Source of the DNA: Apium graveolens
Lineage: Eukaryota > Streptophyta > Magnoliopsida > Apiales > Apiaceae
Length of the DNA: 64,000 nt
Direction of reading: 5' to 3'
Assembly (NCBI RefSeq): GCF_009905375.1
Contig: NC_133657.1
Span: 67,055,233-67,119,232, forward strand
Part shown: positions 2,466 through 64,000 of the stretch, piece after piece
Numbering within the stretch: the stretch's first letter is position 1
How the letters are laid out: the number at the start of each line of letters is the position of its first letter
Made by a program: the position numbers and the translations under genes
The notes under the pieces: model-generated
What the model was told of the DNA's origin: nothing
Database searches by the model: none
Seen by the model: only the letters and a program-made list of their open reading frames with translations

Positions 2466-2654
2466 GAAGGACAATCAGATAAGGACAGTAGCTGATTAAA
2501 GGAAAGAAGATCGAGATAAACATAAGAAGAGATATGCATGAAGAAGGAATTCCGTGAAGAATGGAATACTTGGAAGAAAAGATATCTGATTGATATATTT
2601 TAGGAAGCAGAATTATATTCCATATCAATTAGCGATTATCTTGTAACTGTGTAG

Positions 2655-2663
2655 TATATAAAC
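2655..2663 (+). promoter_or_regulatory. TATA box of LTR A
   Basis: TATATAAAC, about 375 bp into the 616-bp LTR. An equivalent box lies at the same relative place in the LTR of element B (22584-22594, minus strand), which supports this being the core promoter. Confidence 0.65.
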
Positions 2664-2893
2664 ACAGACATAGGGTTTACACTATAAGTGTTATCATTAT
2701 TAGAAAAGATTATTCATTGTAACCCTTGCAGCTCTCGTGATATTTGTTCATCACTGAGAGGTAACAGTTCCATACTGTAACAGAGTTTATTGTTTCAATA
2801 AAGTTTGTTTTCTGTTACTTAAGTTCTTAAAGTTCGATTTGAGTGTACTATACACTGTATTCACCCCCTCTACAGTGTGTGTGTGACCTAACA

Positions 2894-4196: not shown

Positions 4197-4204
4197 TCAG
4201 ATTT

Positions 4205-5208: not shown

Positions 5209-7006
5209 TGTAATAACCCCAATTTTTTTTTGAAATTTTTGAAACCCTGATGAATAGTAACTTTTGCTGATGATGCTGATTAAGGAAAATTATCAGACCA
5301 TGCTATATAGGAGTACTGTTATGGAAATTCTATGATCATATTAGTATTTCATAAAGTAAATGAGTGTATGTAAAGATCGTCATAATCCAAATACGAACAT
5401 TTTGATTTTTTCCCGAAAATCCACCAGATACCGAAATAATTGAGTATAAGGTAACATAATTAAAAGGATTTTAATTCAAGGATCATAAGAGATGATCATA
5501 AAAGGAATATAAAATATTGAGAAAGGTTTAGGAGAGCCCAAGTAATAAGATCCCGGGTATGATCCCTCAAACGATAAACGAGAACGAAAGTTAAGCGAAC
5601 CGTATAACAGATCAACGATCATTAGCCAAGTAATTAGGAGTTGATCAAAGGGGTTAGTGGATGATGATGTCATCACACCAACAAGAGGAAGACAAGTGTA
5701 ACAAGATGACATAAGCATGACCAAATGGGAAGGGTTGGTTGGTTGATTGTGAGCCACATAATTTTTACCATGGTAAAAGGTTAATTAACAAACAAAAAGA
5801 AAGCAACCAAGAAAACACATTCATTTCTCCCCCCATCTCCTTGCTCACGGTTTTTTGAAGAAAAACAAGAAGAAAAATTTCCAAACCCAAGCTCCACTCA
5901 ATCATAATTCAAGAGGTTTGTTTCCTTGGATTCTATATTTCATAACTAAGAAGAGCAAGTAGTTCGAGTGCTTGAATCCAAGGTTTGCTAGCTCAAATAA
6001 ATCATTTTAGTTTAGGGTGAATAGTAACTTTCAAGAACAAATTTTTGATTCTTGATTTTATATGTAAGGTCAAGGTAGCTTAAACATAGATTGAGGCTTC
6101 CATGGGCATTCCGATGATCTTTCATTGATTAAAAGCTTCAAGGAAGGTATAAAACTTCAAACCCTAGTTTTACTTTGAATATTTAGGAGTGGTTTTGATT
6201 AATATAGTCCATGAGAAGAATGATGCTTGTGTGTTTAAAGTTTGGTTGGGTTTGTAGTGATTGGATTTTAATTGAGGTGTTGATGATTGTTAATGGAGGA
6301 GTAGTAGTTTAAATGTTTAAGCATGAATTGAACCTTGTTTGATTTAGTAGTTTGATTGAATTTGAAGATCATGTTTGATTTCGGGAACGAACCATTACCC
6401 CTCGCCTTACCTTGAAACCTTGGTTAAGGCCCTAAATTGACTAATTGTAGTATGAAATAATTATGTAAAGTGGATTAGGCAGTTGGTAGAGTACTCACGA
6501 AAGAATCGCCTTAAAATTTTTAATGGTTAATTTATTAAAAATGGTGGAGCCGAGGGTACTCGAACGACTTATGTGATTCATTAAGCGTAGAAGTGACCAT
6601 AAACAAACATTAAGGTTCAATTGGTTTAAGTCTAGTTTCTTAAGCGACCGGGGTCTAATTCCGACTTATGTTGTTGGTCATAGGTTATCGGACCCACTTT
6701 AAGCTTAAGTTTATCCGGGAGCACTCAGACAAGTTTTCTACCCGTTATACTGTTATTGTAATGTATATATGTATATGCATTATCTTGTGATAAGTGCATG
6801 ATTTTTATTAGCAAATCTTGCGATATATTGGAGCATGTGATATGGTATATATGCATGTTTGTTTCGTAATCTTGATATCTAATTGTTGATTCAATTTCTT
6901 ATAATTGCATAATACCTATGCTAGAGATAAGCAGTAGTTGCGTATACCCTTAGTATAGGGGACCCAGAGGTGAACATTTTCTAAACCGGGAGTCGATGTT
7001 CCCGAG

Positions 7007-20937: not shown

Positions 20938-22312
20938 TATCCCTATAACTAACTTGTAGAGGTTTAAGAAACACTCTTAACTCACAGATATTATCAGTAT
21001 TAAAAGCAAGTATGGTTTGAGGTACCTTTCATTCAGCAGTGTCATCCTCAGTTTCAGCATTTGCCATTATAGCATAGTTGATTTCATCATCTGATTATGA
21101 TGTATCATCCCTGTTCTTTTTCTTGGTGATCTAGGCTTGCTTCCTCTCAGCCCTAGGCTTTTGGTAGTCAGCTGTAAAATATCCTACTCCATCACAGTTA
21201 TAGCATATTTTCATTGACTTGTCAAACTTTCCAGATCTAGAATCCTTCACATCAGAGTTTTTTCTGTAATTCCTCTTGACAGATTTTGAGGAACTAGAGC
21301 CCTTCCTAGAAAATCTCTTATTGTTGTTCTTGAAGTTCTTGTAGACCATATGCTTGAAGCTTTTAACCAAAAAAGCTCCAATTTGCTTAATATCTCCATT
21401 GTTATTATGATCACTTTTAGTATCTGATTCACTATCAGGGTTTAAGTCATCATCAGAGTTTGATGACTCAGTATCAGACTTTGCAATCATAGCCTTTCCT
21501 TTGGAGTGCATTTTTCTCTTTACTTTCACCTTTGGCTTCTATTCAACTTTAAGAGGAACTTGTCTTGCTTTTGGTCCTTTCCTCTTGTTTCTTTACTCCA
21601 TCTCCAGTTCGCGAGTCTTCAACATGTCATAGATCTCATCTAGAGATATTTCATCCAATTCATAGTTATCCCTGATTGATGTGACTTTTAAGTCCCACTT
21701 TTATGGGAGTGCAAGAAGAAACTTCAAGTTAGAGTCTTCAAGATCATATTCTTTGTCAACCAGAGACAAGTCATTGATCAGCTTTTGAAATATGTCACAG
21801 ATTTCAGTCAAGGACTCATCATATTTTGAGCCAAAGTGCTCATACTCCTGAGTCAGTATAGTCCTCCTGTTCTTCTTAATAACAGTGGTTCCTTGACATT
21901 TGACTTTCAAAGTGTCCCAATTTTGTTGGCAGTTCTACATCCAATAACTCTATTAGACATAACACTGTGAAGACTACTGTGAAGAATATGTCTCATTTTT
22001 GCATCTTTCATAATGGATGAAAGATCTTTAGGGGACTAGTCCTTCTTTTCCTTATCAACCATATTTTCTTCTTGGCCAGCAATAACAACAGCTAGCTTCA
22101 TTGGCTTGTGAGGACCATCATAAATTCTGCTCAGATATTCAGGATCTGTTGCTTCCAGAAAAATGACCATATTTTCCTACCATATTGGATATTCATGAAT
22201 CGTTAGTATTGGAACCTTGATAGCCTCAAAGCTGCTTATATTATGGTTGATAGGTTGATTGGCTGGTGGAGGAGGTGGGGGATTCTATTGAGGTTCTTTA
22301 TATATATGCCAT
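20938..22312 (-). pseudogene. N-terminal and middle gag of element B
   Basis: ATG at 22312, where J has an intact homologous start (MADKEPQQ). An insertion of TATA-like bases just after the ATG shifts the frame. Downstream it has the copia gag region K-C-Q-G-T-T-V-I-K-K...ILTQEYEHF (21830-21910), the SNLKFLLALP helix (21705-21735), an acidic Ser/Asp-rich linker (21410-21480) and a zinc knuckle. The knuckle reads C-Y-N-C-D-G-V-G-Y-F-T-A-D-Y (about 21165-21210), where the third ligand His and the last Cys are both Tyr, so zinc binding is lost. The linker codes from repeated ATCAGAGTTT motifs that also occur in the LTR. Confidence 0.82.
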
Positions 22313-22358
22313 TATAAAATTGATTTTAGATCTGAAACTATTTGTATATCAACAACAA

Positions 22359-22370
22359 GCTCTGATACCA
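22359..22370 (-). other. Primer binding site of element B
   Basis: On the minus strand TGGTATCAGAGC, three bases after the LTR end, complementary to tRNA-Met. Confidence 0.9.
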
Positions 22371-22583
22371 ATTGTTAGGTCCTTAATACAACTGTAGATG
22401 GGGGTGAATACAGTTTATGCAGACAAATCGAAATAATTACTCAACAGGATAAACAATTTTGTATTGATTAATAAAAACTGATTATAAATAATCTCTCAAA
22501 GGATGAACAGATATCCTTGAGAGCTTCTAGGTTACACAAAAGATATATCAATACGCGACACTTAAAGTGTTAACCTAATATGT

Positions 22584-47309: not shown

Positions 47310-47339
47310 ATAGATTTCAGTCAAGGACTCATCAGATTT

Positions 47340-47822
47340 TTAGTCAAAGTGTTCATACTCCTGAGTAAGTATTATCCTTTTGTTCTTCTTGATAGCAGTA
47401 GTTCCTTGACACTTGACTTCCAAAGTGTCCCAAATTTCTTTGACAGTTTTACATCCAATAACTCGATTAGACATAACACTATCAAGACTTCTATGAAGAA
47501 TATGTCTCACTTTTGCATCTTTCATAATGGATAAAAAATCTTCAAGAGTATAGTCCTCTTTATCCTTATCAACCGTCTTTTCTTCTTTGCCAGCAACAAC
47601 AACAACTACCTTCATTGGCCTATATGGACCATCATAAATCCTGCTCAGATATTCAGGATCTGTTGCTTCCATACACATGGCCATCTTCACCTTCCAGATT
47701 GGATATTTATGAATCTTCAGGATTGAAACTTTGATAGCCTCACATATGCTCATATTATGATTGATGGGTTGATTGGATGGTGGAGGAGGTGGGGGAATCT
47801 GTTGAGGTTCTTTATCTGCCAT
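47340..47822 (-). pseudogene. Gag N-terminal part of fragment J
   Basis: ATG at 47822 gives MADKEPQQIPPPPPP, then about 160 intact codons with a copia Gag fold: ISILKIHKYPIW-like start of the capsid (here VSILKIHKYPIWKVKM), AKVRHILHRSLD, GCKTVKEIWDTLEVKCQGT and ILTQEYEHF. It ends at a stop made by a small change relative to B. This is the best-preserved part of the B family and shows its true Gag start. Confidence 0.8.
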
Positions 47823-47867
47823 TATAAATTGATTTTCGATCTTAAACTGTTTGTATATCAACAACAA

Positions 47868-47879
47868 GCTCTGATACCA
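47868..47879 (-). other. Primer binding site of fragment J
   Basis: TGGTATCAGAGC on the minus strand, three bases from the LTR edge, exactly as in B. Confidence 0.88.
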
Positions 47880-48001
47880 ATTGTTAGGTCCTTAATATAA
47901 TTGTAGAGGGGGTGAATACAGTTTATGCAGATAAATCGAATTAAGCACTCAACAGGATAAACAGTTTTCTATTGAGTGGTAAAAACTGATTACAAACTAA
48001 T

Positions 48002-49024
48002 TGTTAGGAATATGTCATAGGCTTGATATAAGTTCACCAAGACACCTCACTAGATTCAATTCGGTGATTTTGTAGCTCTCGATGGATGATCACTCTAAAA
48101 TCCATTGAGAGAGTAGCTTATGTATTAACAAGTCTTGTAACACATTTCTGCATTCTACAATACCTTAAAGATCTAGAAGTTGTAGGATATTCAAAGTCAT
48201 GTTGACTACTAGTTTGATATGCAATGTAGGATGACTAATTGTAAATATTAGATGCCTTGTAATTTTGCATAAGTGAAATAGAGTTAACTGCTATGGAAGA
48301 CTTTCAACGGATGATTCTGCAAGGTTTCGACGGATGACCCAAGTCACATTCAATGGATGATCTAATGAAGCTTCGACTGATGATTCGACATAGTTTCAAC
48401 GGATGATCCAATGAAGTTTCAACGGATGTTTAAATTTAAATTGCAGTTGATAGTGACTTGACAGTCACATGGGTTGATTAGATGCTAATGGAATGTGGCA
48501 GCCTATTTACAGATTTTAGAGAACAAAGAAGCATTTCCATTTCCATGCTAACTTAAAGATATTCAAAGATCCTGTACAGAGAAATAAAGAAGCATGTAAT
48601 TAGACTAAGAAACTTTTTTTTTATTAGTTAGTCTTTTTATCATGTAATTTGGTGATACATAAACCAAGGGTAGCAAGTAGAAAATCAATCAAGCAATCAA
48701 CTAGAGAAATAGATAAAGCTGTATCTGTGAAAATTTTCCCTCTTCTTTGTCTGTTCTACTTGTAAGCAGCTGTGTGCAAACCTTGCATCATAGAGTTCTC
48801 GAATTATATATATCTCTGATGGAAAAGTTCAATCCACCAGAAAGTTTTTAAATACTCGTGTTCAACTACTTTGTGTTTGATTTCTTCAATATTTTCATTC
48901 CACACTTTAGCTAAATCAAACACATTTATATTTTTAAGATAGAATAGTTCTTAAATTAAAAAAGAAACCAGAATTACATTCAACCCCCTTCTGCAATTCT
49001 TTGGTAGATTGTTTGGGAATAACA
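48002..49024 (+). repeat. 5' LTR of element K (1023 bp)
   Basis: TGTTAGGAATATGTCATAGG start, identical to the 3' LTR start at 63593, and GGGAATAACA end followed by the primer site. Motif cluster at 48302-48430. A possible TATA-like GATACATAAAC lies at about 48654. Confidence 0.92.
48302..48430 (+). repeat. Cluster of six TTCAACGGATGAT motifs, 5' LTR K
   Basis: Copies at about 48302, 48325, 48348, 48371, 48394 and 48417, 23 bp apart throughout, all in the same orientation. Variants are TTCGACGGATGAC, TTCAATGGATGAT and TTCGACTGATGAT. An earlier copy TCTCGATGGATGAT lies at 48078, with an inverted partner TCCATTGAGA at 48101. Located about 220 bp or more upstream of the likely core promoter. Confidence 0.9.
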
Positions 49025-49025
49025 A

Positions 49026-49037
49026 TTGATATCAGAT
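49026..49037 (+). other. Primer binding site of element K (degenerate)
   Basis: TTGATATCAGAT at the expected place, one base after the LTR; the tRNA-Met complement is TGGTATCAGAGC. The mismatches probably arose after insertion. Confidence 0.65.
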
Positions 49038-49084
49038 CAAGCTCTTGAAGAACAAAGAGCTTAAAGATCACAACAACTAACAAG

Positions 49085-50139
49085 ATGAGCAGAAAAGATG
49101 TTGGAGTAAAAATTCCATTTTAGGACAAAGACAACTATCACCACTGGAAGGTGAAAATGCACCTGCATCTCCTCTCCCAAGATGAATAATATGTGGACTG
49201 TATTGAAAAAGGTCCTCATGTCTGTATGAGAGCTGCTACATGAAATGAGCCATTTATCCCAAAGCCTAAAGCATAATGGTCTGATCCAGATATTGAGCAA
49301 GGTCATAAGGATAAGAAGCTCATGGACATTTTGTTTAATGGTGTTGATGGTGACATGTTTGACAACATCATCAATTGCAAAACTGTTAAGGAGGTCTGGG
49401 ATACAATTCAAGTTATATGTGATGGAACTGAGCAAGTAAGGGAAAATAAAAATACAACTCTTGATTTGGAAATATGAGCATTTTCATAGTGAAGAAAATG
49501 AGTCTCTCACTGACATTTTTAGTAGGTTTCAAAAACAGCTAAATGCTCTAAAGATGCATGGAACAATCTATCAGACAAAGGACTCAAACCTCAAGTTCCT
49601 TAGATCTCTACCAAAGGAATGGAATCCTATGACAGTCTCACTAAGAAATTCTCAAGATTATAAGGAATTTACCTTGGACAGACTGTATGGGATTCTAAAG
49701 ACCTATGAGCTTGAAATAGAGCAAGATGAGAAGCTGGAGAAAAGAAGGAAGAAGGAAGGATCCATTACATTGGTTGCTGAGCAAGAGAGAGAGAAAGAGA
49801 TAAAGGTAGAAGCTGTGGAATCTGCACCAAACCCCAGAGTTTGTGTGAAGGCAAAGGAAAAGGGCTAGTAGCTGAACATGAAGACCATCTTAGTCAAAAT
49901 GATATGGATGACATAAATGAGCATCTGACTTTTCTAACCAAAAGGTTTTCCAAGCTCAATTTCAAGAAGAATTTTAGAGCATTCAAGTCAAATAGAAACA
50001 TGGTTGACAAGTCAAAATTTAAAATGTTTCAAGTGTGGCTTGAGTGGTCATTTTGCAAGTGAATGCAGAAAGCCTGATTATGATAGAAAGAAGTTTGAGC
50101 CTGTGGATTACAAAAAGAAATATTTTGAGTTGCTCAAAC
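49085..50139 (+). pseudogene. Gag of element K, left part
   Basis: ATG at 49085. MSRKDVGVKIPF then a stop, NYHHWKVKMHLHL, further stops, and NCKTVKEVWDTIQVICDGTEQV. A frameshift at about 49445-49465 leads into an open part at 49461-49868 with EYEHFHSEENESLTDIFSRFQKQL, SNLKFLRSLPKEW and RLYGILKTYELEI. A second frameshift follows at about 49855 and a third at about 50020, inside the zinc knuckle. That knuckle otherwise has all four ligands (C-F-K-C-G-L-S-G-H-F-A-S-E-C). S3 then interrupts the reading after KKKYFELLKQ. Confidence 0.87.
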
Positions 50140-50144
50140 AGAAG
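50140..50144. repeat. Left target site duplication of S3 (AGAAG)
   Basis: AGAAG before TGTGACGG, repeated at 53724-53728; the same five bases as element E. Confidence 0.9.
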
Positions 50145-50321
50145 TGTGACGGTCTCAACCCCGAGGTCAGGAGTTGACGTCATCAACAACAATAATAACA
50201 ATTATAAATCAATCTAAAATATAACTATGACCCCTTTATCAAGACCTTTTCCAGGTTTAAGTATGATTTAGGTTACAACTAACACGAACCAACCTACTGC
50301 AATTGTCCCGACGCAGTTAAC

Positions 50322-50435
50322 TTAACACAGCAACTCAACAGACCACCCTTGGTCCAGCACAACCAGCTCAGAGGAGTCTAACACGAAGGGAACTGGAACC
50401 CTGCCCTGACTACCACGCGAGAATCTCCTAGGCAT
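50322..50435 (-). CDS. Small ORF near the 3' end of LTR S3 (37 aa)
   Basis: Same length and place as in LTR E, starting MPRRFSRGSQGRVPV directly after TTGCAG and ending WSVELLC. The differences from E are substitutions only, with no stop or frameshift, although indels are common elsewhere between the two LTRs. Confidence 0.4.
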   Translation of the reverse strand: MPRRFSRGSQGRVPVPFVLDSSELVVLDQGWSVELLC

Positions 50436-50690
50436 CTGCAATACATATAACATATTCTGCAAGGGTGAGCAATTGCTTGCTCAGCAGCACCACTATATGA
50501 ATAACAAGCAAGATAGTTTAAAGTAAAATAGTTCTAGGAACATAATTCATAACTCGTTAGAAACATGTAAAATAGGTATAAACTGGATAGCAAAACTAGC
50601 ATGCTCTGTAAAACAAAAATCAACAGTCATGTGTTGTGCATAAAAACCATAGTTAAATTTTAGCATGCTATTTCCATTTTCAAACCTTCC

Positions 50691-50815
50691 GTTCCATTAC
50701 AGGAACCATAAAACCATCTGTCCCGTTACGGGGACCCAAAATCATTTGTTCCGTTACGGGAACCATAAAACTTGTCCCATCGCAGGACCTATAAAATTTG
50801 TTCCTCTCCGGGAAC
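50691..50815. repeat. Palindrome array, five units, S3
   Basis: Units at 50691, 50720, 50748, 50774 and 50800. Arms GTTCC/GGAAC, GTCCC/GGGAC, GTTCC/GGAAC, GTCC/GGAC and GTTCC/GGAAC. The fourth and fifth units have quite different loops (CATCGCA, TCTCCG), yet the arms still pair. Confidence 0.9.
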
Positions 50816-53723
50816 CTTACAATCACTTTGATTTGTTAACAATTTCAAAACTGAACCAATCAAATCTATTGGACATTAACGGGTGAAGATAGCTGATCAG
50901 TCTACCCTCACCGGACAGCGACTAGCGGCCGTCCAGAAATAGAATGTGTTCCGGAACTTGGGAAAAGACTAGCTAGGTCTTTCCCCCTTGCTGGACTAAT
51001 CGGTTAAACAATGCACAACCCAATTAGCCACTTACGCAACCTCATGCTGGGCCGTTACCGAATAACGGGCCTCTTACGCAACTCCAATAGATCAACTGAA
51101 TTCCCTTTTTGCCTTTTTTCCAAAATTCCACGACATAGGTGGATCAAAACATTCTCTTTATCCAGTTTCCAAAATCATTATCACCTATCTCTTTTATATT
51201 TTCAAAACCAATTCTGTCACAGCACACTATTCAAGTCCTCTTTTCATTTAAATCACATTTAGAGATAGGTGTTTTCAGAAGTTAATTTTCCCCAAAACAT
51301 AATTTTAACAACATTTCCAAATACGGGGAATACATAACTTAAAACGTTTCTGTTCCATTACGAAAGTACAACATTTAGTTATTCACATATACTGAACCAT
51401 AAAAGAATGGTCAGGGGTACTTGCCTTTCAGAGCGTTACAACTATCTCTGATTGACCTCGAACCGATTTGGAACACTCGGCTTTATCGCTTCACTATTTA
51501 ACTATCCTGGATCCGACTTCAACCCTCAAGTCCTTCGCTTGGAACCTCGATGCGCTTGTCGACTGATCACTAGATTATCTTAGTTCGATATCAATTCTTG
51601 AGTCCTTCAACTAGAACCTACAGAGCCGAAATACCCTACGTTAGACGTCTAGGTATGCTTGACATATCCTCACGAACAGTCCTACCCAAACGATAACAAT
51701 CCCAACTCGCATATATTCGAACTATTACAACTTACATAACAATTAAGGTTCATATATTCACAACCCAGTTCACTAATTATTTTCAGAATATACATATACT
51801 CTTAATCCCAAAAAATAGGTTTTGGAATTCCTTTTTCACAAAATATATAGATATACACCCAACTGTGTTACATATGACTAACTGTTTTGGAATCTTGGTT
51901 TTGAGTTTTAACCTATACTAGCAGAACCGAATTTATACTTAATTAATCGTTAGTAAGATAAACCGACCAACATAGGTTAGTAAGTTTATCTGAGTAACGG
52001 TTAATCAAATACAACTCAAGGTCGTACTAATCCGAGTCAGTACTCGTACCAAAAATTAAATTAAGAAATGTTATATCTATAATAATATAGGCAAACGACT
52101 TGATTGGTAAGTTCGATAATTATAGGAAATGTTTCCGAATTTCCGAAATAGTAATCTTCCGAAATCCGGACAGCACCTCCTCTATTTATTGGACTACCAG
52201 TCGATCTCATATCGACACCAAAATCAACAACCAAATTCACAACATCAATAATCCACAATCCCACCGATAACGCAACCAAACAATCAATACAATCCTAGTC
52301 CCAACCAAACACACTATCTAACAAATCTCGAAACTAATTATTTACAATTACTTTTATCCCAAATATTTTAAAAATAAAATTTATAATTTATTATTAGGCT
52401 CAAGAATCATCATTGCCAAAAATCCGTCGGCTCAACAAGTTCATTGCCGATGGCGACATAACTCCGACGGTGCCCATACGGGTTTCCGATCGGAGTTTCG
52501 CCATTAAAATTTAAGAACCCCGAATGATTCAATAATCACTAATTCGAAATAATCACAAAAGTCATTCGAATTATACAATTTCAATAAATAAATCAAACGA
52601 ATTTCAGAATATTCATTTGAATCACGGAAACAGCCACAAGCACGTCCTCGCCGAAAAAATACATTGGCAGCGAGGAAGAAGTGAGACAGAGCAGAAACAA
52701 ACCATGGCAACAGAGCACACACAGGCAACACATAACAATACACGCACTGTACGCGCGCATAGACCACCCAGCCGGAAAGAAGTCCGGCGGCGGCCAACAG
52801 AGAAAGAAATAAAGAAATCACAGACAGCACAGGTACTTCGATTACCAAGAACATGGATAACAGCCGCACCACTTGAAGCAATCGCTGAAGAACAAGAAGA
52901 AGGAGGGAGTTCAGAAGAACTGATAAGCTCAAGGAGGAGGAGGGGGTAAACTCGATTGAGTTTATCTACCTCTTCTATTTTTTTTTATAAAACTGATAAA
53001 TTCAAGAAGTTGCCACGTAACAGATGAATTGCAGCAGCTAAACACGTGTCCCACTCCCGGTTACGTGTCTGGTTTTGATCCGACTTTTACAAATTTAACG
53101 AATAACGCATGGGTGAATGAAACCCGAAAATTTACCAAATTACTTTTAAAATTTTATAAATATCCCGGAGTAAATAAAAACGTAACTTTCAAAATTTTAG
53201 AATAATTTTTAAAATGCAATTTATACCCGCTTTTAACAAATAAACGAATCAACGCGCGGGTGAAATTAATCTCAAAAATTCCCAAAATAATTTTAAAATT
53301 CTCAGAATAATACGAACTTGATACAATATAAGTTTCATAATTTTTGAAGATTCCCATAATTAAACATGGATTTTACTATTAAACACACTCAGAAAATAAT
53401 TTAAAAATAAATAATTAATGAAATATTGATTTCTCAATTTTATAAAATCCAAAAAAAAATTATTGAAATTATAAAGTCATGAAAATAATTTTAGAGACAA
53501 TCCAAGTATTTATGGAAATAAAACTGCAATAACACCATTTTAACAATGATACAAAATCATACAATTTAATAATTAATCACGCAATTTAATTCCATACACT
53601 AGTAATCACATACACATAGTGACAGAGTAATAACCCAATGACTGAACCCACACACATATTTTATTTAATTATTTATTCCACAATTACACATTTAATAATA
53701 ATAAAAATATACGGGTCATTATA

Positions 53724-53728
53724 AGAAG
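53724..53728. repeat. Right target site duplication of S3 (AGAAG)
   Basis: Matches 50140-50144. Gag of K resumes in the expected reading. Confidence 0.9.
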
Positions 53729-55066
53729 GATAGGGCATTTCTAACTCAATGAAATGACTGGGTTGCTGATGGATTAGAGGAGGATGAGGATACAAGCTAA
53801 GTCAATCTAGAACTTATAGCCAAATTAGATGAAACAGAGGTCAGTTCATCCAGTAATCAGGTAATCACAACTAATCTAGCACATTTATCTAAAGCTGAGT
53901 ATAATGATGCTATAAATGATATGCCAACTTAGTTATATCATCTGCGTGTTACCCTCAAATCACTCACCAAAGAAAATACTAAAATTAAAGAGAACAATTT
54001 GTTTTTGAGTGAAAGAAAAAATGTGCTAGAAACTCAATTTGTTGAGTTTGAGAAACTGAAGATGGAGTATAAGATTGCAAAAGATGAACTGACTAAATCC
54101 TTAAAGAAAGAGGAGATTTTAAAAAACCAACTTGAACGAGAACATGAAGTAATTAAGGCATGGAAATCATCTAGAGATGTCCATGCTCAAATTACTAAAG
54201 TTCAAGGTATAGAATCTTTCTGTGATGACGCCTGGAAAAAGAGCAAGGAGAAACTGAATCCTAACTTGGAAGAAGGACTTTCAACGGATGTGGATTCGAC
54301 GGATAATGAAGATTATCCGTCGAATGATCAAAAGAATTATTCGTCGAAAGACAAGGAACCACATCCGTTGAGTGAAAGAAAGCTAGTCAGTAAATCCCAA
54401 CTAGCTAAGTTAATTGAGAAATATGGATCAGTTTCCAAGAACTTTGTTCCAGGAGAAACAAGTTAAGTGAAAAAGAATAAGAGAGTCAATGTAGGGCATC
54501 TGTCAATCAAGCAATTGAATGACAGATTGGAGAAATTTGAAGTTAAAGTAGAATCTAAAAGGAAAAACAATAGAAATGGGAAAGTAAGAATTAACAAACA
54601 TAACAACTACACACCTGATAAATATGCACCTAGAAAAATCTGTGTGAAGTGTGGTAGTGTTAATCATTTGTCTGTTAACTACAAACTTGCTATGCCTGCT
54701 CCCATATCTGCATCTTCATTTCCTAACATGCCTACAATGCCTGTGAATGTTATGCCTACACATAATTTGAATGCACAATTTGCTAATATGCCATTTGCAC
54801 AAAATCCTTACTATGTTGCATTTAGTATGCCTCAAATGCCATTTAGCATGCTTTACTGGAATAACATGTTTGCACAGAATATGCCTTTTCATGTTAACCA
54901 ACATGTGCATGAAAATTCTGTAATGATGAATGGTTTTAAAGGTTCTACTCAAATGACTAAGGATGAATCTCAGATACTTAAGTCAAATGAGTACAAACCT
55001 AAGATACCTAAGAAAAAGGCTAATAAAGCAGGACCCAAGGTGACTTGGGTACCAAAATTAACTTGA
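53729..55066 (+). pseudogene. Gag of element K, right part
   Basis: An acidic stretch with three stops, then an open coiled-coil region at 53999-54466 (long Glu/Lys helix around FVEFEKLKMEYKIAKDELTK), a linker coded from five CAACGGATG-type motifs (54279-54374), an in-frame stop at 54464-54466, and an open tail to 55066. The tail has NVGHLSIKQLNDRLEKF, a second zinc knuckle C-V-K-C-G-S-V-N-H-L-S-V-N-Y (last Cys lost, 54640-54682) and a Met/Pro/Asn-rich stretch of about 80 residues. It ends VTWVPKLT with TGA at 55064-55066. Confidence 0.85.
54279..54374 (+). repeat. CAACGGATG motifs inside gag of K
   Basis: Forward TTTCAACGGATG at 54279 and ATTCGACGGATAAT at 54294; reverse ATTATCCGTCGAAT at 54312, ATTATTCGTCGAAA at 54336 and ACATCCGTTGAG at 54361. 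They are read as S-T-D forward and as P-S or H-P-L in reverse. Confidence 0.88.
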
Positions 55067-55080
55067 TTTGATTTTGTTGT

Positions 55081-56637
55081 GTGCAGGGAAATAGAAAGAA
55101 TCTTTGGTATTTGGATAATGGGTGTTCAAGGCATATGACTGGAGATTCTACCCTGCTCACTGAGTTCAAGAATAGATATAGCCCAAGTATCACTTTTGGA
55201 GATGAGAGCAAGGGTTATACTGTGGGATATGGCTTGATTTCTATAGACAATGTCATCATTGAGAAAGTTGCCCTAGTGGATGGACTCAAGAATAATCTAT
55301 TGTGTATCAGCCAACTTTGTGACAAGGGCAACTCGGTAACATTCAACTCTGAAGCCTGTGTTGTGACCAACAAGAAAAGCAACAAAGTGGTCCTCACTGG
55401 AGTGAGAAAAGGAAATGTGCATCTAGCTGACTTTAACTCATCAAATGCAGAATCTGTCACTTGTCTCTTCAGCAAGGCAAGTCAAGATGAAAGTTGGCTA
55501 TGGCACAATAAGCTATCCCATCTTAGCTTCAAGACTATGAATGAACTAGTCATGGAAGATTTTGTAAGAGGAATTCCTCAAGTGGAATTCTCAAAGGATG
55601 GATTGTGTGATGCCTGTCAGAAAGGAAAGCAGATCAATGCATCATTCAAAAAGAAGCCTGATTCAACAATTGAAGAACCTTTACAATTACTACACATGGA
55701 TTTATTTGGACCAGTCAATGTGTTGTCTATCTCAAAGAAAAGATACTACCTAGTAATGGTGGATGATTTCTCAAAGTTCTCTTGGACATATTTTCTCAAA
55801 TCCAAAGATGAAGCTAGTGAAATCATCATCAATCACAGAAGGCAAGTCAACAATCATCCTGATCTCAAAATTAGAAGAATCGGGAGTGAAAATTAAACTG
55901 AGTTCAAGAATTCTGTGATGAGATTGTTTTGTGATGAAAATGGGATCATGCATGAGTTTTCAGCAGCAAGAACCCCACAACAAAATGGAGTGGTGGAAAG
56001 GAAGAACATATCTCTTATTGAAGCTGCAAGAACAATGCTAGAAGAATCAAAGTTACCAACATACTTTTGGGCAGAAGCTGTAAATACTGCATGCCACACT
56101 CAGAATATTTCTTTGGCTAATCAAGCAAAATGCATGACACCCTACCAATTGTTCAAGAATAGGAAGCCAACATTAAACTTTCTTCATGTCTGTGGCTGTA
56201 AATGCTATATCTCAAGGAATCAAACTGATCAGCATGGAAAGTTTGATGCCAAAGCAGATGAAGGCATTTTTGTTGGGTATGTTATTGGAAAAGCATACAG
56301 AGTCTACAATATCAGAACCAACATTGTTATAGAATCTGTACATGTTGTGTTTGATGATAAGAAGATTGAAGGACTACAAGATGGAGATTTCCATAAAAAC
56401 CTCAAATTTGACAATATTGAGATGATTTGTGATGATAGTGATGATGAAAGTGATCAAGAAACAATATCTAAGGATAATGCAGAAAATCCTACAACATATG
56501 AAGCACATAATTCAATATTCGTCGAAAGACCAAGTGCATCCTCCGTTGAGAGACAATCTACATCATCCATCGAAAGGCAAAGATCAACATCCGTTGAGCC
56601 AGCAATAGGAGTTGAAAATCTATACAGATCACAATAA
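55081..56637 (+). pseudogene. Protease and integrase of element K
   Basis: The pol frame opens with QGNRKNLWYLD. The protease site is D-N-G in place of D-S/T-G, then C-S-R-H-M-T-G. The zinc region has LWHNKLSHLSFKTMNEL and CDACQKGKQ (55498-55640). The integrase core has LLHMDLFGPVNVLS and YYLVMVDDFSKFSWTYF. The second catalytic Asp appears as Glu and is followed by a stop (55887-55896). The frame continues TEFKNSVMRLFCDENGI and QQNGVVERKN with the catalytic Glu, YFWAEAVNTACH and KADEGIFVGY. The tail linker is coded from motif copies (56515-56598). Just upstream, both the gag and pol frames are closed by stops (55064 and 55069). Confidence 0.88.
56515..56598 (-). repeat. Motif copies in the integrase-RT linker of K
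   Basis: Four reverse-orientation copies, TATTCGTCGAAAG, CCTCCGTTGAGAG, CATCCATCGAAAG and ACATCCGTTGAG, about 24 bp apart, translated as a repeated V-E-R-type peptide. The reading frame of the motif differs from that in gag. Confidence 0.88.
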
Positions 56638-57662
56638 AAAAGAACCCCAACTTCAAGTCAAAGATCCATAAACTCAGGGGGAGTTTCTTCTAATCAAAAC
56701 TTAGTCACACATCAAGACAACTATCAGGCCTCTTCATCTAGAGCTAATCTACCTCAACAGAGAAAATGAACTAGAGATCACCCATTTGAATTAATTATTG
56801 GTGATGCATTTTTAAGAGTGCAAACAAGGAAAGCAACTCAGGAAGAATGTCTATACAGCAGCAATCTGTCTCGGGAAAAGCCTAAAAAGGTAGAAGAAGC
56901 TCTGTTGGATCTTGATTGGGTCTTAGTTATGTAGGAGGAGCTAAACCAATTTGAAAGAAATAAAGTTTGGAAGCTGGTACCCAAGCCTAAAGGAAACAAT
57001 TCTATTGACACCAAGTGGGTATTCAGAAACAAGATGGATAAAAACGGCATTGTAGTCAGGAACAAAGCTAGATTGGTTGCTAAGGGCTACTGTTAACAAG
57101 AATTAATGGATTTTGATAAGACTTTTGCTCCTATAGCAAGACTTGAAGCCATCAGAATCTTTCTAGCCTATGCAGCCCATGCCAATTTCAAGGTCAATCA
57201 AATGGATGTTAAAAGTGCATTTCTGAATGGAGATTTGGAGGATGAGGTATATGTCAGTCAGCCTCCTGGTTTTGAAGACCCCAACTTTCCAGAATATGTC
57301 TACTATCTTTTGAAAGCACTTTATGGACTGAAGCAAGCACCTAGAGCCTGATATGACACTTTATCAAAGTTTCTCTCAGAAAATCATTTCACAAGAGGTA
57401 CTGTTAATAAAACTTTATTCTTTCGAAATGTTAATGGCTCCAGTATACTTGTTCAAATTTATGTATATGATATTATATTTGGCTCTATAGATGAGAATAT
57501 TTGCAAAAAGTTTGCCAAATTGATGTAAAGTAAATATGAAATGAGCATGATGGGAGAACTAACTTACTTTCTTGGTTTACAAGTTAAGCAAGTTAGTGAT
57601 GGAATATTCATTAGTCAAACTAAATATATTTATGATCTTTTAAAGAAGTTTGACTTAAAGGA
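56638..57662 (+). pseudogene. Reverse transcriptase of element K
   Basis: Recognisable in one main frame with stops: EELNQFERNKVWKLVPKP, DTKWVFRNKMDKNG, KARLVAKGY then a stop, FDKTFAPIARLEAIRIFLAYA, QMDVKSAFLNGDLEDEVYV (57199-57255) and LLKALYGLKQAPRA. The catalytic region reads I-Y-V-Y-D-I-I-F-G-S (57456-57486), with the first Asp of Y-V-D-D changed to Tyr. Then come YFLGLQVKQ and KYIYDLLKKFDL. A frameshift at about 57660 leads into RNase H. Confidence 0.87.
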
Positions 57663-58403
57663 TTGCACATCTACAAAAACTCCCATGGCCATGCAACTAA
57701 ACTTGAAGTAAACACTACTGAAAAGTTTGTGGATATTTCAAGCTATAGAGGCATGGTTGGCTCACTTTTATATTTAACAGCTAGTAGGCTAGATATAATG
57801 TTTGCTACTTGTCTTTGTGCTAGATTTCAGGCTGATCCTAGAGAATCTCATTTTGTAGATATTAAGAGAATTTTCATATATCTCAAAGTAACACAAAAAC
57901 TTGGCATTTGGTATCCTAGAGATTATGGTTTTGATATAACTGGTTATTCAGATGTAGATTATGCATGTTATAAAATTGATAGAAAAAGTACTACAGAAAC
58001 CTGTCAATTTCTAGGAAATAAGCTAGTATCCTGGTTCATTAAAAATCAAAATTTAGTCTCTACTTCTACAACTGAATCTGAATATATTGTTGCTGTTAGT
58101 TGTTGTGCACAGATTTTATGGCTGAAAAATCAATTGTCGGGCTATGGTCTACAGGTGGATAAGATTCCTATTTTCTGTGATAACACAAGTGCCATTGCAA
58201 TTAATAAAAATCCAGTACAGCATTCAAGGACCAAGCACATTGACATTAAGTACCACTTCATTAGAGAACATGTCATGAATGGTATTGTGGAACTTCAATT
58301 TGTTCCAAGTGAGAAGCAACTTGCAGACATCTTCACCAAGCCACTTGATGAATCCACCTTTACTAGGTTGGTAAGTGAGTTAGGTATGCTTAATTACTCT
58401 TAA
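57663..58403 (+). pseudogene. RNase H domain of element K (open)
   Basis: A 246-codon open stretch in a frame shifted from RT: YRGMVGSLLYLTASRLDIMFA, ITGYSDVDYA (catalytic Asp), SWFIKNQNLVSTSTTESEYIVA (catalytic Glu), IFCDNTSAIAI (catalytic Asp), HIDIKYHFIREHV and EKQLADIFTKPLD. The catalytic residues appear intact. It is the best-preserved pol domain in the window but has no start of its own and cannot be made without the broken parts before it. Confidence 0.88.
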
Positions 58404-58496
58404 TTTGTTTTGATTTCTAAGCAATTTGTAATGCAGCCAGAATAAAATTTGATGCTTCTTGTCCAAGATGAAATTTTGGCCAAGTCAGAATTTACA

Positions 58497-58704
58497 TCTC
58501 GACGGATGTTCATTATCTGTTGAAAATGAATATTCGTTGAATTTTATCATCCGTTGAAATATCAAATATTATTCTGGGTACTTTTGTCTCGATGGATGAT
58601 TGTTTAATCCTTATATGTCGAATTGCTCTCAATCTTAGTCGTTAATTCTAGGCATTATCCGTCAAATTTCCATACAGCTTGTAAGTATATTTCGATGGAT
58701 AATC
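58497..58704. repeat. Motif copies in the post-pol spacer of K
   Basis: Forward copies at about 58497, 58587 and 58690; reverse copies at about 58546 and 58656; weaker reverse variants at about 58512 and 58529. Confidence 0.85.
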
Positions 58705-58813
58705 ATTAGAATTTCGACAGTTTATTTTATTTTTAAACAGCTATTTTGGGCCAATTTCATTGGTTACTTTATTTTTACTTTTTACTTTTTAACCGGCTAT
58801 TTTTGAGAAAGTA

Positions 58814-58820
58814 TAAAAGC
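58814..58820 (+). promoter_or_regulatory. Possible TATA box before the extra ORF of K
   Basis: TATAAAA about 110 bp before the ATG at 58929, followed by a CT-rich leader (TTTCTCTAACTCTTTCGTC). Composition looks like a plant core promoter, but there is no transcript evidence. Confidence 0.3.
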
Positions 58821-58928
58821 CTATTTCATTTTCATTTTTACTTTTATCTTTCTCAAGCAATTTCTCTAACTCTTTCGTCTCCAAAGCAAAAAAAACCCTC
58901 TTCTCTAAAATTACTTTCACTCTCAATA

Positions 58929-61900
58929 ATGGCACCAATAGTCAAGATCATGTCTCAAACTAAGGTTGTTTATGAAAAGAACAACTTCGTAGCATTGGTG
59001 AACAAGGAGATTGCCGCTTCTGAAGACTACCACAAAATAATGGATTTCATTCGAAGCTGCAAACTGAATTATGCTATGCTGGAGTCTTCTGTCATCTACT
59101 GTGAAGTGGTTGAGGAGATATGGATTATTGCTGTTTACAACTCACATGAAAAAACTATTACCTTCACTCTTAAAGGTAATAATTACTGCATAAATAGTGA
59201 TGTAATTCGAGCATGTTTCCAATTGCCTGAGAATAATGCACTAGTTCCACACACAGACACACATGTAAGTTCTATGCTTATCTTTATGGGTTATTCTCTT
59301 GACCCTGCCAAACTTGGTGAGGTTAGGAGAAAAGGTCTTAGAAAGGAGTGGAGCTTTCTATGTGACTCTTTTATTAAAGTCTTTTCTTGAAAAATAAGCA
59401 ATTTTGATGCTGTAACTTACTCTCTTGTTAACATGCTCTATATGCTGCTTAGTAATAAGTATCATAATTTTAGCGAGTCTGTTTTGTATGAGTTAGGTTA
59501 CAAACTAGGATATATTAAGAAAAGATCTAAGAACATATACTATGCTAGATTCTGTATGTTGTTAGCTAATTTTGTTTCTGAAAATCTTATCATTGAGAAC
59601 CCAACCAACAAGCTTGATTGTTGGGTCCAAGAAAGGAGAGTTATTGCTGACTTGAACAGGGCAAACAACCTCAATGAGGTTCCTCTAATCTACTTGCCAA
59701 TCATGGAGGGGCCTCAGGTAAGTGAGGTAAATACTTCTGTCTATGCCACTTCTCTACCATAAATTTCTTTGTAGACAATTGTGGTTATGGCATCTGTGAG
59801 TTTGCCCCAACAGATGCCTACCCAAGCCACTAAAACCAAAGTTTCTAAATCCAAGTCTCAAAGACCCCACTCTAGTTCCTCTCAAAAGGGACTAGTTTCA
59901 AAAACTACTAAAACAAAAGAGGGGAGTGTGAAGGGAAGTAAGCTTAGCGAGGGTTAGGGTGAACATCAAAGAAACCCTAAGGATAAGGAGGGAGAGGTAT
60001 GTGTAACCCAGCCTAGCCACACTGTAGTTTTCCAACAATCTGTAGTGACTAATAAGGAATCTAGCTCATTATTAGTTGCATCCTCTCAAAAGGATGTGAC
60101 TATTGAACAAAGCTCTCAGCCAAGAGCACAGGGAAAAATGATTAGGGAAACAGACTTACCTTAAACTTACACAAGAAAGAAGAAATCTAAAAAGCATGGG
60201 GATACACCTTCTCAAAGTCAGATTGATGTGGCTCTAATAAATGTGGAGTCACAGCCAAAATCTCTTATAATAGAAGCACCTCACACATAAAACTCACCCA
60301 CTAACTCTCCGGATGTGGACATGATTCACACATCAATTCCTGATTCTCTATCTTTAACTCTCATGGAGAAACCAAAATCTCAAGCAAGTGAGCATCATCT
60401 TTTGGATGATTTGTTGGCTCACTTGCTGTTTCTTTCCGATTCTACTGAGAAATCTGTGCAAAATCTAAAATTAATCACCACAGATTCTACAGTAGTTTCA
60501 ACTCCAAACCCTGTCATTTCTACTCTCTTGATGGATATTTTTCATCCGTCGACTAGTTATTGTATCTCAACGGATGTGCTTGACAGTAATCATCCGTTGA
60601 AACTCTCAACTACTATCTCGACGGATGTCTCTCATCGGTTGAATATCACAGCACCACTTGAAATTTCAACTATTATTACAAGTGCAGATGATCTGGTAGT
60701 TGTACAATCACTATTAGGATTTAGAGAAGGGAGTGAACAGAGTGAGAGGCTGAGTTGCTCTCAGGAAAAAGGAGAGGAAAAGAGTGAACTAATGCAAGCT
60801 ATTTCTTCCAGTTTGGCAAAAGAGAGTGAGAGGAGTCCCACCTTAGATGGTGCAGGTGAGGGTGTGAGGGTGGGAAGCCAAGGGGAGCCCTTGATGCAAG
60901 AACAGAGAGAACATGAGAGAAAAGCAGATACAGAAAAATGGGAAGAGCCCATTGTTAGTGAGTTAAGGGATGCCAATGAGGTTGAAAAGAAGCAGCTATT
61001 TCAGCAAAAATATCAAGCTATCTTGGACTCTTTTTCTTATGAAGCTGAGGCATTTACTCACCCTGTTCCAGCTTATCAAGCTTTGGTTGAACTAGACAAT
61101 GAGGCTGGTGAGAGGATACTAAACTTGGTGTGCACAACAGCATCTATGCTAAGGGCCAATGATGCAATCAATGCCATACCCTTCACAACTGGTGATGATT
61201 TAGAGTTTTCTGAAGACTCTTTTGGGGATGATGGTAAGGATGATGAAGGAGAAGGCATGAATATAGGGGAGATGCAGATATTCCATCATGGATGATGCAC
61301 AAGGAATGCACTTACTCACATCTCCAATCCACACTTTTCAAGCTAATTCATGACACCCAAAGTTCAATTCAAGCATACACAAGTGCCAACACCAAAAATC
61401 TACTCAAAACCCATCTGGAATCTCTCCAATTGCACAAAATACAAGCTCTCAAACAAAGTCAGGATGTGGATGAACTAAAGCAAGAACTTGCTGAAGTTAA
61501 ATAGGACTTTGTTGCAAGGTTGGATGCTAGGCTTCCAAACATATCAATGATAGAGATAGTCCAGAAGCTCAGGAAAGCAGCTGATTTAAACAGGAAAGTT
61601 GAGGCCATAGATTCAAGACTGAACAGTGTGGAGGAATCAATGGCCAAGATACTTGCAAATCAGGAAACTCAGACAAGTCTTCTTCAGAAATTGGTGGCTA
61701 CACAAACTTCCAACCCTGCTCAACTTGATGCTAATAAAAAGGGGGAGAAAGATGTACTTGTCTCAGTTAGTGAATGGGAGAAAACTGTAGTCATTCTAGT
61801 TAGTGAGGGGGGAAAGTGCACAACATTCAAGTCAGTAAAGTGATTGTTCCAGCAATTACTTTCTCTAAGCCACCAGTTCTGGATAGCATTGACATGATCA

Positions 61901-63447
61901 AGATAACATCAACTGAACTAGAGCTGAAAGAGAAATGGAAGAAGCTTGATGAGAAGATTGAGAAGAAGTTTGGTCCAATTGAGAAACAAGACAAAGCTGT
62001 GAAATATTTCTCTCATTTTTCTCAATTGAGACCAATTTCAATCAATGAAATTAGCTTAGGGAATATAGAAACGGGTCAACCCTCTGCAAGAAAACCTCTA
62101 CAGGCTATTGTGATTTTTCAGCCAAAGAAAAACTATCCAAAGAATTCAAGCAAAAATACAGTGGACCTAGTCTATGAAACTCCCAATCCTAATGAAAACA
62201 AGCTGCTTGGTAGATCTATTGCTTATTTCAAAGATCCCAGAGACTCAGTCATGAAGAAGAGAATTGCTAAAATCTACAAGAATGGCAAATTGATCTGCGT
62301 GACGGCTGGACATCCACAGTTTGTAGAAGCTAAGAAAGAATAAAAGATGAGGCTCAAACAACATCAAAAGCAAGCTGCCCTAGATGCCAAGAACCAAGCT
62401 AAGAAGCCTACAACCACAGAATCTGAAATGCCTGTTGTGATAGCTAAGTCTATAAATGAAAAAAGCAAGAAGAACCAAAGCAGACAAAGAAACCAAGACT
62501 GAAATTCAGACCAAAAAGGATGTTGGATTTTGATGAAGACAAGGAAGAGTACATGCCAACCCAATCTACCACTTAAAGTCAACCAGCCATGCCCACAATG
62601 GAGCAGGATGAATTCAAGGTTTATTCTGATATAAATTTTCATAGTGAACCCATAATTCCCAAGGATGAACCTATAGATTGGGAAAGCCTACCAATCCCTG
62701 ATATAAACTTCCCAATTCCAACCAAACCAAAGAGAACAAAGTCAAGAGCATTCAAAAAGGACAAAACCTATCAGACTTCAATCCAAAGCCTTAGCCAAAC
62801 CTAAACCAACTATCAACAAGAGAGATCAACTCTACATCTGTGACATTAAGAAATTTTCTGCATCAATCTTTACTTGGATGAGCTGGATGAAGTTAGAGTT
62901 ATTGATGCTTACAAAAGACTTCCAGAAAGATTGGTATTCAGATACAAGGGTGGAAAAGAGCTAAATTGGCCTCTTCACAGAATTCTCAATGAATGCTATT
63001 ATGTTATAGTAAAGATTTTCTCCTCAATAAAGAAGAACTTTGGGTTCAACATTGTTGCCAAAAGGATGGTACTGAATAAAATTGATGAGATAATGAATAG
63101 CAAGAGAAACCCAAATGCACTCCCAAGAGTCTTAACTATTCCCTAAAATGGAGATAGAGTACATTTGAGGCCATACTGGATAATGGCGTTCAAGGATGAA
63201 AAGAACATCAAATGATTCTTCAGATTTAAAGATCAATTGAAGATTTTAAGCAATGAATATCTCATGGAGATGCAAGAGATGTCGGATCATACTAATGAAG
63301 ATGAATCTGAATTTTATAGACAACTTCAACACCAGATTGAAGAGAATAATGAGAAACTGGGAAAGAAGTCTAGACAATCAAGGAAATAAACTAAATTTTC
63401 CCAGTCTAAAGGAGCACCTTAAAATGGCTTGTGAGATTCTCTATTAA
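58929..63447 (+). pseudogene. SIRE-type extra ORF after pol (element K), broken
   Basis: ATG at 58929 after a CT-rich leader. Parts in order: an N-terminal domain (58929-59760; VALVNKEIAASEDYHKIMDF, NYAMLESSVIYCEVVEEIW) resembling the domain I recall from extra ORFs of asterid SIRE elements; a Ser/Thr/Lys-rich linker (59780-60300); a part coded from motif copies (60542-60643); an acidic Gln/Glu-rich region (60720-61290); a coiled-coil-like segment (61520-61750) that aligns with element A; and a C-terminal basic part to 63447. At least ten stops or frameshifts (for example 59388, 59760, 59957, 60163, 61293). The intact form would exceed 1300 residues. No signal peptide or convincing membrane segment. 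Function unknown. Confidence 0.75.
60542..60643. repeat. Motif copies inside the extra ORF of K
   Basis: CATCCGTCGAC (60543), TCTCAACGGATG (60565), CATCCGTTGAAA (60590), TCTCGACGGATG (60616) and CTCATCGGTTGAA (60630), alternating reverse and forward so that neighbouring copies can pair. Forward copies are read as I-S-T-D-V and reverse copies as H-P-S/L. Confidence 0.88.
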
Positions 63448-63583
63448 CCTTCCTCTGTATAATTCTCAATATACTGTAGCACTTGTTAATTTTATCTACC
63501 ATTAACCAGTTTGTATTCATAAGGTGTTTTATTATCATCAAGTTTCTCTTAATTTATATCTACAATTTCAGTAGACATAAATT

Positions 63584-63591
63584 GGGGGAGA
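63584..63591 (+). other. Polypurine tract of element K
   Basis: GGGGGAGA directly before the 3' LTR, as in element A. Confidence 0.88.
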
Positions 63592-63592
63592 T

Positions 63593-64000
63593 TGTTAGGA
63601 ATATGTCATAGGCTTGATGATAAGTTCACCAAAACACCTCAGTAGATTTAATTCAGTGATTTTGTAGCTCTCGACGGATGATCACTCTACCATCCATTGA
63701 GAGAGTAGCTTATGTATTAATAAGTCTTGTAACACATTTATGCATTCTACAATTCCTTAAAGATCTAGAAGTTGTAGGATATTCAAAGTCATGTTGACTA
63801 CTAGTTTGATATGTAAAATAGGCTGGCTAATTATAAATATTAGATGCCTTGTAATTTTGCATAAGTGAAAAAGAGGTAACTGTTATGGAAGACTTTGATC
63901 AACGGATGATTCTATAAGGTTTCAACGGATGACCCAAGTAACATTCAACGGATGATCTAATGAAGCTTTAACAGATGATTCAACACATTTTCAACGGATG
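63593..64000 (+). repeat. 3' LTR of element K, cut by the window edge
   Basis: Same start as the 5' LTR (TGTTAGGAATATGTC) and near-identical over 408 bp, including the TCTCGACGGATGATC copy at 63677 and the TCAACGGATG cluster at 63899-64000. The rest, with the right target duplication, lies outside. Confidence 0.92.

Follow-up and report, generated by a model that had tools for sequence, protein, structure and literature searches.

Sirevirus repeated motifs (RMs) define CpG islands; they lie in the long terminal repeat (LTR) and ahead of env, and in two elements also where env begins (Bousios 2010, PMC2829016). In the portions of that paper available to us, the RM is a high-copy word with a CGG/CCG core, found in the LTR's upper half ahead of the TATA box; the word differs from element to element, and all published RMs are palindromes. 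The same portions mention a predicted CpG island in pol of Osr9 and Osr8 and call for experiments on RM function. The nearest functional model appears to be VANC in the VANDAL elements of Arabidopsis, with the likeness on the DNA side. Here we describe element K, a Sirevirus-like element in a 64,000-nucleotide stretch of Apium graveolens DNA (contig NC_133657.1, positions 67,055,233 to 67,119,232; hereafter the window). A short word, TCRACGGATRAT, recurs in its LTR, its non-coding spacer and three coding linkers. The word is a real, non-random, genome-wide feature. It is probably a family-specific Sirevirus RM that acts as a double-stranded DNA site for one sequence-specific protein, either of the host or encoded by the element in the manner of VANC.

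Element K is arranged in the order 5' LTR, gag, pol, non-coding spacer, broken extra (env-like) open reading frame (ORF), polypurine tract (PPT) and partial 3' LTR. The interval 48003–64000 contains 25 copies of TCRACGGATRAT when one mismatch is allowed and 35 when two are; the other 48,002 bp of the window contain 0 and 13, respectively. The copies within K form the following groups; RT denotes reverse transcriptase.

48079–48108, plus strand: a copy of the motif and, facing it, an imperfect inverted one (TCGATGGATGAT-N6-AAAATCCATTGA), with a predicted 12-bp hairpin
48304–48430, plus strand: LTR array, six copies in direct orientation spaced exactly 23 bp apart
54281–54371, plus strand: gag linker cluster of two forward copies (S-T-D) and three reverse copies (P-S, S-S, P-L)
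56514–56597, plus strand: integrase-RT linker cluster of four reverse copies at exact 24-bp steps, read V-E, V-E, I-E and V-E
58499–58703, plus strand: non-coding spacer cluster between pol and the extra ORF, seven copies in both orientations
60528–60642, plus strand: extra-ORF cluster, in which forward copies (M-D, S-T-D) alternate with reverse copies (H-P-S, H-P-L, H-R-L)

The extra-ORF cluster consists of five copies in 60541–60642 and a weak sixth copy at 60528 (score 6.0 with the matrix described below). The LTR array starts 302 bp from the beginning of the LTR and is followed by a TATA-like box at 48805. An initial annotation of this DNA had claimed more than 25 near-copies in both orientations, placed as six in the LTR at 23-bp spacing, five in gag, four in the linker, about seven in the spacer and five in the extra ORF, with the reverse form read as P-S or H-P-L in gag and the extra ORF, as V-E-R in another frame in pol and not at all in the spacer. 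The counts, placement and reading frames agree with this description; the LTR has an additional copy at 48079, and both orientations are found overall, although the LTR array is entirely forward and the pol array entirely reverse. The clusters lie near 48363, 54325, 56555, 58595 and 60590. As plain distances they are about 2.0–2.4 kb apart without the insertion nested in gag, and about 3.3 kb more lead to the 3' LTR array.

A scoring matrix was learned from the seven LTR copies alone and then run on the internal part of K. At score 12, 16 internal sites were found, and all 16 fall within the four clusters; 1000 shuffles gave a mean of 0.56 and a largest count of 4. The other 48 kb contain two sites at this score, and the nested insertion has none. 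At score 9, 19 of the 23 sites in K lie inside clusters (shuffle mean 4.4, largest 13), with 23 sites in the other 48 kb and two in the insertion. Over the whole window, TCAACGGATGAT at up to two mismatches gave 32 matches, compared with a mean of 6.24 and a largest count of 14 in 100 shuffles. Shuffled sequence, the check proposed with the initial annotation, therefore falls far short of the observed counts. Among k-mers counted after filtering for low complexity and GC content, the word was top-ranked at lengths of 9, 10 and 12 bases when K was taken together with its 5' LTR; when the LTRs were excluded, it led at 10 and 12 bases but not at 9. None of the 834 LTR 12-mers outside motif sites recurs internally more than three times at one mismatch, compared with up to seven times for the motif; at two mismatches, the other 12-mers reach 12 (mean 2.1) and the motif up to 15.

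The exact word TCRACGGATGAT occurs 94,222 times (47,522 + 46,700) in the 3.33-Gb genome (4,849 contigs), compared with 158 times (89 + 69) for the reversed control, and element copy number accounts for much of this total. Two samples of 20 stretches each were inspected: every fifth of 100 listed places, all on one contig, and a further set consisting mainly of paired listed places about 2.25 kb apart. All stretches except L039 were picked for at least one exact copy; they thus show the wide spread of the word and not the fraction of elements that have it. The 20 places of the first sample include nine in or beside related LTRs, six in gag, two in the spacer, one in the integrase-RT linker and two without a match to K. 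With the seed excluded, these stretches contain 69 further copies at one mismatch, and the reversed pattern has none. Placed against K, the 40 loci gave nine gag, eight pol, five spacer and no env pieces, and 18 loci gave none under the length rule. At up to two mismatches, the gag pieces have three to five copies at matching places, the pol pieces four to six and the five spacer pieces five to eight. The array positions recur in genomic copies that are 67–85% identical, and the aligned pol arrays contain three to five tandem 24-bp units, whose number varies between copies. The initial annotation would have been refuted by other full-length copies lacking the internal motifs; in this motif-picked sample, related gag, linker and spacer pieces do carry the word. 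A chance origin of the copies is rejected by the shuffle counts, by the genome count relative to the reversed control and by the sampled stretches.

Two side observations were made in these samples. At five loci (L025, L030, L032, L015 and L035), the linker has three to five tandem 24-bp units and a facing copy just downstream, which is absent in K. Two other loci (L013 and L021, contig C1) do not match K but have five word copies each at 16–34 bp steps, so the word may be common to more than one element family.

The sequence around the word is not shared between regions. Identity between regions is 0.77 in the core, a value inflated because the 29 sites were picked by the core, and 0.29–0.32 in the flanks, which is the chance level. 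CpG dinucleotides are also concentrated in the clusters. The internal part of K has 25 CpGs in 10,445 bp outside the clusters, with an observed/expected ratio (O/E) of 0.07, and 29 CpGs in 524 bp inside them (Fisher p 1.3e-24). The clusters thus hold 29 of the 54 internal CpGs, and 27 of the 29 lie inside motif copies. The O/E of the clusters, including the LTR array, is 1.2–1.9, as computed without a CpG-island program, which fits RM clusters as CpG-rich parts; the LTR outside the array has 0.18. The same pattern is seen in the codons inside and outside the clusters: CCG accounts for 4 of 6 CCN codons versus 0 of 65, ACG for 4 of 9 versus 2 of 84 and TCG for 6 of 17 versus 2 of 94. In nine internal stretches of the genomic sample, with seeds excluded, motif copies have 40 CpGs in 406 bp and the remainder 29 in 15,695 bp, a partly circular comparison. 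The nested insertion in K has an O/E of 1.06; therefore, genomic place alone does not strip CpG. The simplest account would be long-term CpG loss in a methylated lineage, with the motif CpGs retained by constraint or protection. Across the window, Sirevirus-type internal sequence (49025–63592 without the insert, 1–2069 and 2892–5200) has O/E values of 0.07–0.16, the LTRs of K and of a second element, A, have 0.40 and 0.39, and other stretches 0.54–1.06; a related fragment from another assembly, L001, has 0.35.

Element A and L001 have words of their own.

1–2893, plus strand: end of the second Sirevirus-like element, A, with an env-like ORF, spacer, PPT and 3' LTR (2278–2893); its own word is AAGTTCTGAT

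The PPT and attachment site of A, from 2269, are equal to those of K, and no RT of A lies in the window. At up to one mismatch, AAGTTCTGAT occurs four times in the LTR, twice in the spacer and eight times in env, for which shuffles averaged about 0.1, 0.1 and 0.5; the rest of the window shows no excess (five shuffles for long segments). Synonymous shuffles gave a mean of 1.4 for the six copies in the long ORF (0/300) and 0.4 for the two in the short ORF (16/300). A counter-result came from a 14-mer, CTTAAGTTCTGATA: when up to three mismatches are allowed, the window has 24 copies, a count that 3 of 100 shuffles reached. A search for DNA of relatives found none in a viral contig collection and three loci in genome contigs, namely the Sirevirus-like L001 and two at 34–35% identity, which served as controls. 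L001 (NZ_VCHY01000042.1) is a plant-type Sirevirus-like fragment in an assembly of Labilibacter sediminis, where it is presumably contamination, and its RT is 58% identical to that of K. Its word, ATTCTTCTGTTG, is present in the spacer as five copies at 25-bp steps and one inverted copy, in gag three times (shuffle mean 0.07), and once each in the integrase-RT linker and RT-RNaseH. That linker has its own 21-bp repeat, which has TTCTTCTG in common with the L001 word. The best 11–12-mer excess is 20.8-fold in L001 and 7.6- and 8.9-fold in the two controls. The words of A and L001 were chosen by a census of the same sequences in which they were later tested, which makes their p-values optimistic. 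K, A and L001 thus use different words as family-specific motifs in multiple arrays, with weaker evidence for A and L001.

Further observations on related sequences are as follows. The L001 spacer has a second repeat, TGTCCCTAGAA.CATGCTGCTG-like, with three copies listed. Two small "plasmids", NZ_CP115454.1 and NZ_CP115302.1 (Kitasatospora, Streptomyces), match the copia reverse transcriptase at 34%, and protein P0141 of a Klebsiella contig matches the extra ORF of K; these are possibly plant DNA in bacterial records. Positions 2894–5400 on the minus strand hold the gag-to-integrase part of a different copia element, 70% identical to the K integrase over 459 bp and apparently interrupted by element A.

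The occurrence of one core in the LTR, the spacer and three coding linkers, in both orientations and with unrelated flanks, together with the related pieces elsewhere in the genome and the survival of CpG, argues for a DNA site. A protein bound at the word would keep the LTR promoter usable, shield the long body of the element from silencing, or both. The coding copies would have been tolerated in linkers, where the steps in gag and pol are of 24 bp, a length compatible with the reading frame, as against 23 bp in the LTR.

The protein could be a host MYB-type transcription factor, a special case of this reading that we consider possible but doubtful. The MYB core is YAACNG/CNGTTR. YAACNG fits 16 of the 35 K copies found at up to two mismatches, and CTGTTG in L001 fits the core as well, but the other 19 copies do not fit (seven of them read TCGACGG), nor does AAGTTCTGAT of element A. 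The motifs of the published RMs include mainly stress-related factor sites, as described in the available portions of that paper (PMC2829016).

By analogy with VANC, the product of the extra ORF may instead bind its family's own word, although we regard this as unlikely. With the word in the LTR, the spacer and the coding linkers, about every 2 kb, such an element-encoded anti-silencing system would cover the whole body. Word and protein would diverge together, as expected if neighbouring families have different words, and bound sites would stay unmethylated, which would explain the surviving CpGs. In three K and two A extra-ORF pieces, covering parts of both ORFs, no Pfam match to DUF1985 (VANC) was obtained up to E 1. 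No Pfam family reached its curated cut-off with the extra-ORF pieces, the top match below it being CTNNB1_binding at 20.4 bits versus 22.4. An alignment-free structure model of the first domain was unusable (mean predicted local distance difference test score, pLDDT, 39.7). The extra ORFs of K and A share one weak match, with E 8e-4 over 104 amino acids, and the named relatives of the K extra ORF are from Apium graveolens, Heracleum sosnowskyi and one contig labelled Klebsiella.

An RNA-level signal, in which inverted copies form hairpins that serve packaging or translation or give rise to small RNAs, is improbable. Seven stretches of K were folded, each with 200 shuffles for comparison. The gag cluster (z −9.1), the spacer piece 58490–58600 (z −6.0) and the env cluster (z −5.8) fold better than all of their shuffles, the LTR pair at 48079 folds moderately well (z −2.9, 4 of 200 shuffles as good), and the L001 spacer array has a z of −6.0. 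In addition, small RNAs are drawn to the LTR palindromes of maize Sireviruses, as Bousios 2016 is reported in the available portions of PMC10760457. However, the LTR array (z −1.0), the second spacer piece (−0.8) and the pol array (+0.2) fold no better than shuffles, and the LTR and pol arrays are one-directional. A common hairpin as the property uniting the clusters is therefore rejected, and a protein that reads double-stranded DNA in either orientation fits all of them.

Selection on the peptides, with the likeness in DNA as a by-product of kept S-T-D, Y-P-S, H-P-L and S-V-E-R linkers, is very unlikely. Within the family, the peptides are indeed often kept. Among 16 related gag proteins, S-T-D at 54296 is present in 10 and P-S at 54315 in 9 of the 13 that cover the place. 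The env alignment took in 18 of 31 matches, and coverage of the motif part was checked for all 31; 19 cover it, and 14 of these have three to six motif-type tripeptides. S-T-D is often replaced by S-M-D, P-M-D or P-T-D in the env relatives, and the change of T to M is the outcome expected from CpG loss in ACG. Against a peptide-level cause, the word is non-coding in the LTR and the spacer and is read differently in pol (F-V-E, S-V-E, S-I-E, S-V-E). A frameshifted gag relative, P0160, has I-I-R-R twice, as expected from ATTATCCGTCGA in another frame, and the CCG, ACG and TCG codons are concentrated in the word. Synonymous-codon shuffles inside each ORF (1000 runs for K) seldom recreate the word. 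At up to two mismatches, gag has five copies and a shuffle mean of 1.9 (p 0.006), pol five and 1.5 (0/1000; one copy, at 56467, lies outside the cluster) and env five and 1.0 (0/1000); at up to one mismatch, the p-values are 0.010, 0.003 and 0.005, respectively. In gag, eight genomic copies besides K were compared with it after one near-duplicate was dropped and seed sites were left out. Where the amino acid is equal, the codon is identical in 55 of 68 cases inside the motif and 274 of 471 outside (p 2.8e-4), and retention of the amino acid is no better inside (68/111) than outside (486/672). The three readings, the unshared flanks, the rarity of the word in synonymous shuffles, the gag codon retention and the persisting CpGs support a DNA word, and not one peptide, as the common factor across regions. 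The earlier claim that the peptide is not what is conserved consequently stands between regions but not within the family, and the pol codon test described next adds no support to it.

Several points weigh against a protein-binding DNA site. The pol codon comparison, with six copies besides K after two near-duplicates were dropped and seed sites left out, gave identical codons in 27 of 37 cases inside the motif and 131 of 159 outside (p 0.25), which offers no support and is compatible with selection on the peptide. For the exact 9-bp core, the within-ORF shuffle gave no significance in pol (one copy, p 0.14). Codon counts are not independent events, because related copies have common descent. 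Five of the 19 covering env relatives (P0124, P0126, P0127, P0132 and P0139, all Heracleum) are without motif peptides. At the loose score of 6, K has 48 internal sites, which is close to the background (mean 25.9, at most 46 in 300 shuffles). Motif positions change no more slowly between the 5' and 3' LTRs of K, with 8 changes in about 84 bp versus 22 in about 319. The word contains CG, and CpG counts within matches are thus partly circular, although the near-absence of CpG elsewhere is not. Finally, some of the pol array could have arisen by tandem duplication alone.

Neutral spread of a short unit around the element by tandem slippage and template switching is suggested by the regular 23–24 bp steps, the variable unit number in pol and, by eye, the similar intervening bases of the pol array, but it is very unlikely because the core recurs from region to region without its flanks, the core CpGs persist in an element otherwise stripped of them, and the array positions recur in diverged copies. 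Copying of larger blocks between regions is likewise disfavoured by the chance-level flanks, although the pol arrays have locally gained and lost tandem units. Among the candidates put forward in the initial annotation, binding sites are therefore favoured, and a common RNA structure and block copying by template switching are disfavoured.

The remaining features of K are as follows.

48002–49024, plus strand: 5' LTR of K, 1,023 bp, TG...CA, TGTTAGGA...TAACA, as read from the sequence
48805–48811, plus strand: TATA-like box, downstream of the LTR array
50140–53735 (edges approximate), no strand assigned: nested foreign insertion in gag, without motif copies at matrix score 12
58929–59387, plus strand: N-terminal part of the extra (env-like) ORF, an open reading frame
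63584–63592, plus strand: PPT GGGGGAG and the AT preceding the 3' LTR
63593–64000, plus strand: partial 3' LTR, cut by the window end; the motif is present at 63671, 63689 (minus strand), 63899, 63922, 63945 and 63968

The partial 3' LTR is 91.7% identical to the 5' LTR over 410 bp. The gag gene is disrupted by an in-frame stop at 54464 and by the nested insertion of about 3.6 kb. K has a Sirevirus-type attachment site, in which the PPT is followed by AT/TG (GGGGGAG-AT-TGTTAG at 63584–63598), and its LTR ends, by eye, with the polyC-rich integrase signal (CAACCCCCTTCTGCAATTC at 48981). A protein search with RT-RNaseH gave 7899 matches at E 0.001 among 7991 scored. The named matches of highest identity among the 120 listed are from Apium graveolens, at pairwise identities of 82% over 77% and 79% over 83% of the query. 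Rfam and tRNA scans of the window found nothing, the tRNA scan using the bacterial code. Two copies, 87% identical, of a minus-strand copia gag/LTR end lie at 47312–48001 and 21799–22492, and K is apparently inserted into one of them at 48001/48002.

Judged by sequence and position, the LTR, spacer and env copies of K are RMs of the published Sirevirus kind. The initial annotation knew of no description of such a motif; however, the copies in the LTR, before env and at the start of env match the RM as far as the available portions of Bousios 2010 (PMC2829016) describe it. As there, the LTR cluster lies 200–400 bp in, upstream of the TATA box, further copies are found upstream of env (seven in 58499–58703, and likewise in the five related spacer pieces), and the clusters are CpG-rich, so that the CpG concentration has in part been reported before. 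Unlike the palindromic RMs of that account, TCRACGGATRAT is a non-palindromic half-site with one CGG, and CGG-CCG symmetry is present only at pairs of facing units; the half-sites are direct in the LTR array and facing in gag, the spacer and env. The available portions of the same paper contain no copies in gag or the integrase-RT linker, no facing half-sites and no frame-compatible 24-bp steps. The literature searched, which covered few subscription papers, gave no report of these features. The gag and pol copies thus look like a new extension of the known Sirevirus LTR repeat, and the word inside gag and pol, with the codon constraint in gag, suggests a role beyond promoter building.

The LTR palindromes of maize Sireviruses (Bousios 2016, as given in the available portions of PMC10760457) resemble the K word in being a repeated LTR motif with a CGG core, but they are palindromic and are discussed as a structured small-RNA target and a cis-regulatory region. 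The VANC target motifs of Arabidopsis VANDALs, as described in the available portions of Hosaka 2017 (PMC5735166) and Sasaki 2023 (PMC10398659), are likewise short, family-specific and multi-copy; their arrays gain and lose units, and related elements have different words. In contrast to K, VANDALs are DNA transposons, and the available portions of PMC5735166 place the VANC21 motif mainly in non-coding sequence and in one orientation; binding is proven there and proposed for K. If a single protein, encoded by the extra ORF or by the host, binds all the clusters and holds off methylation, sequence-specific anti-silencing would extend from this Arabidopsis group of DNA transposons to LTR retrotransposons.

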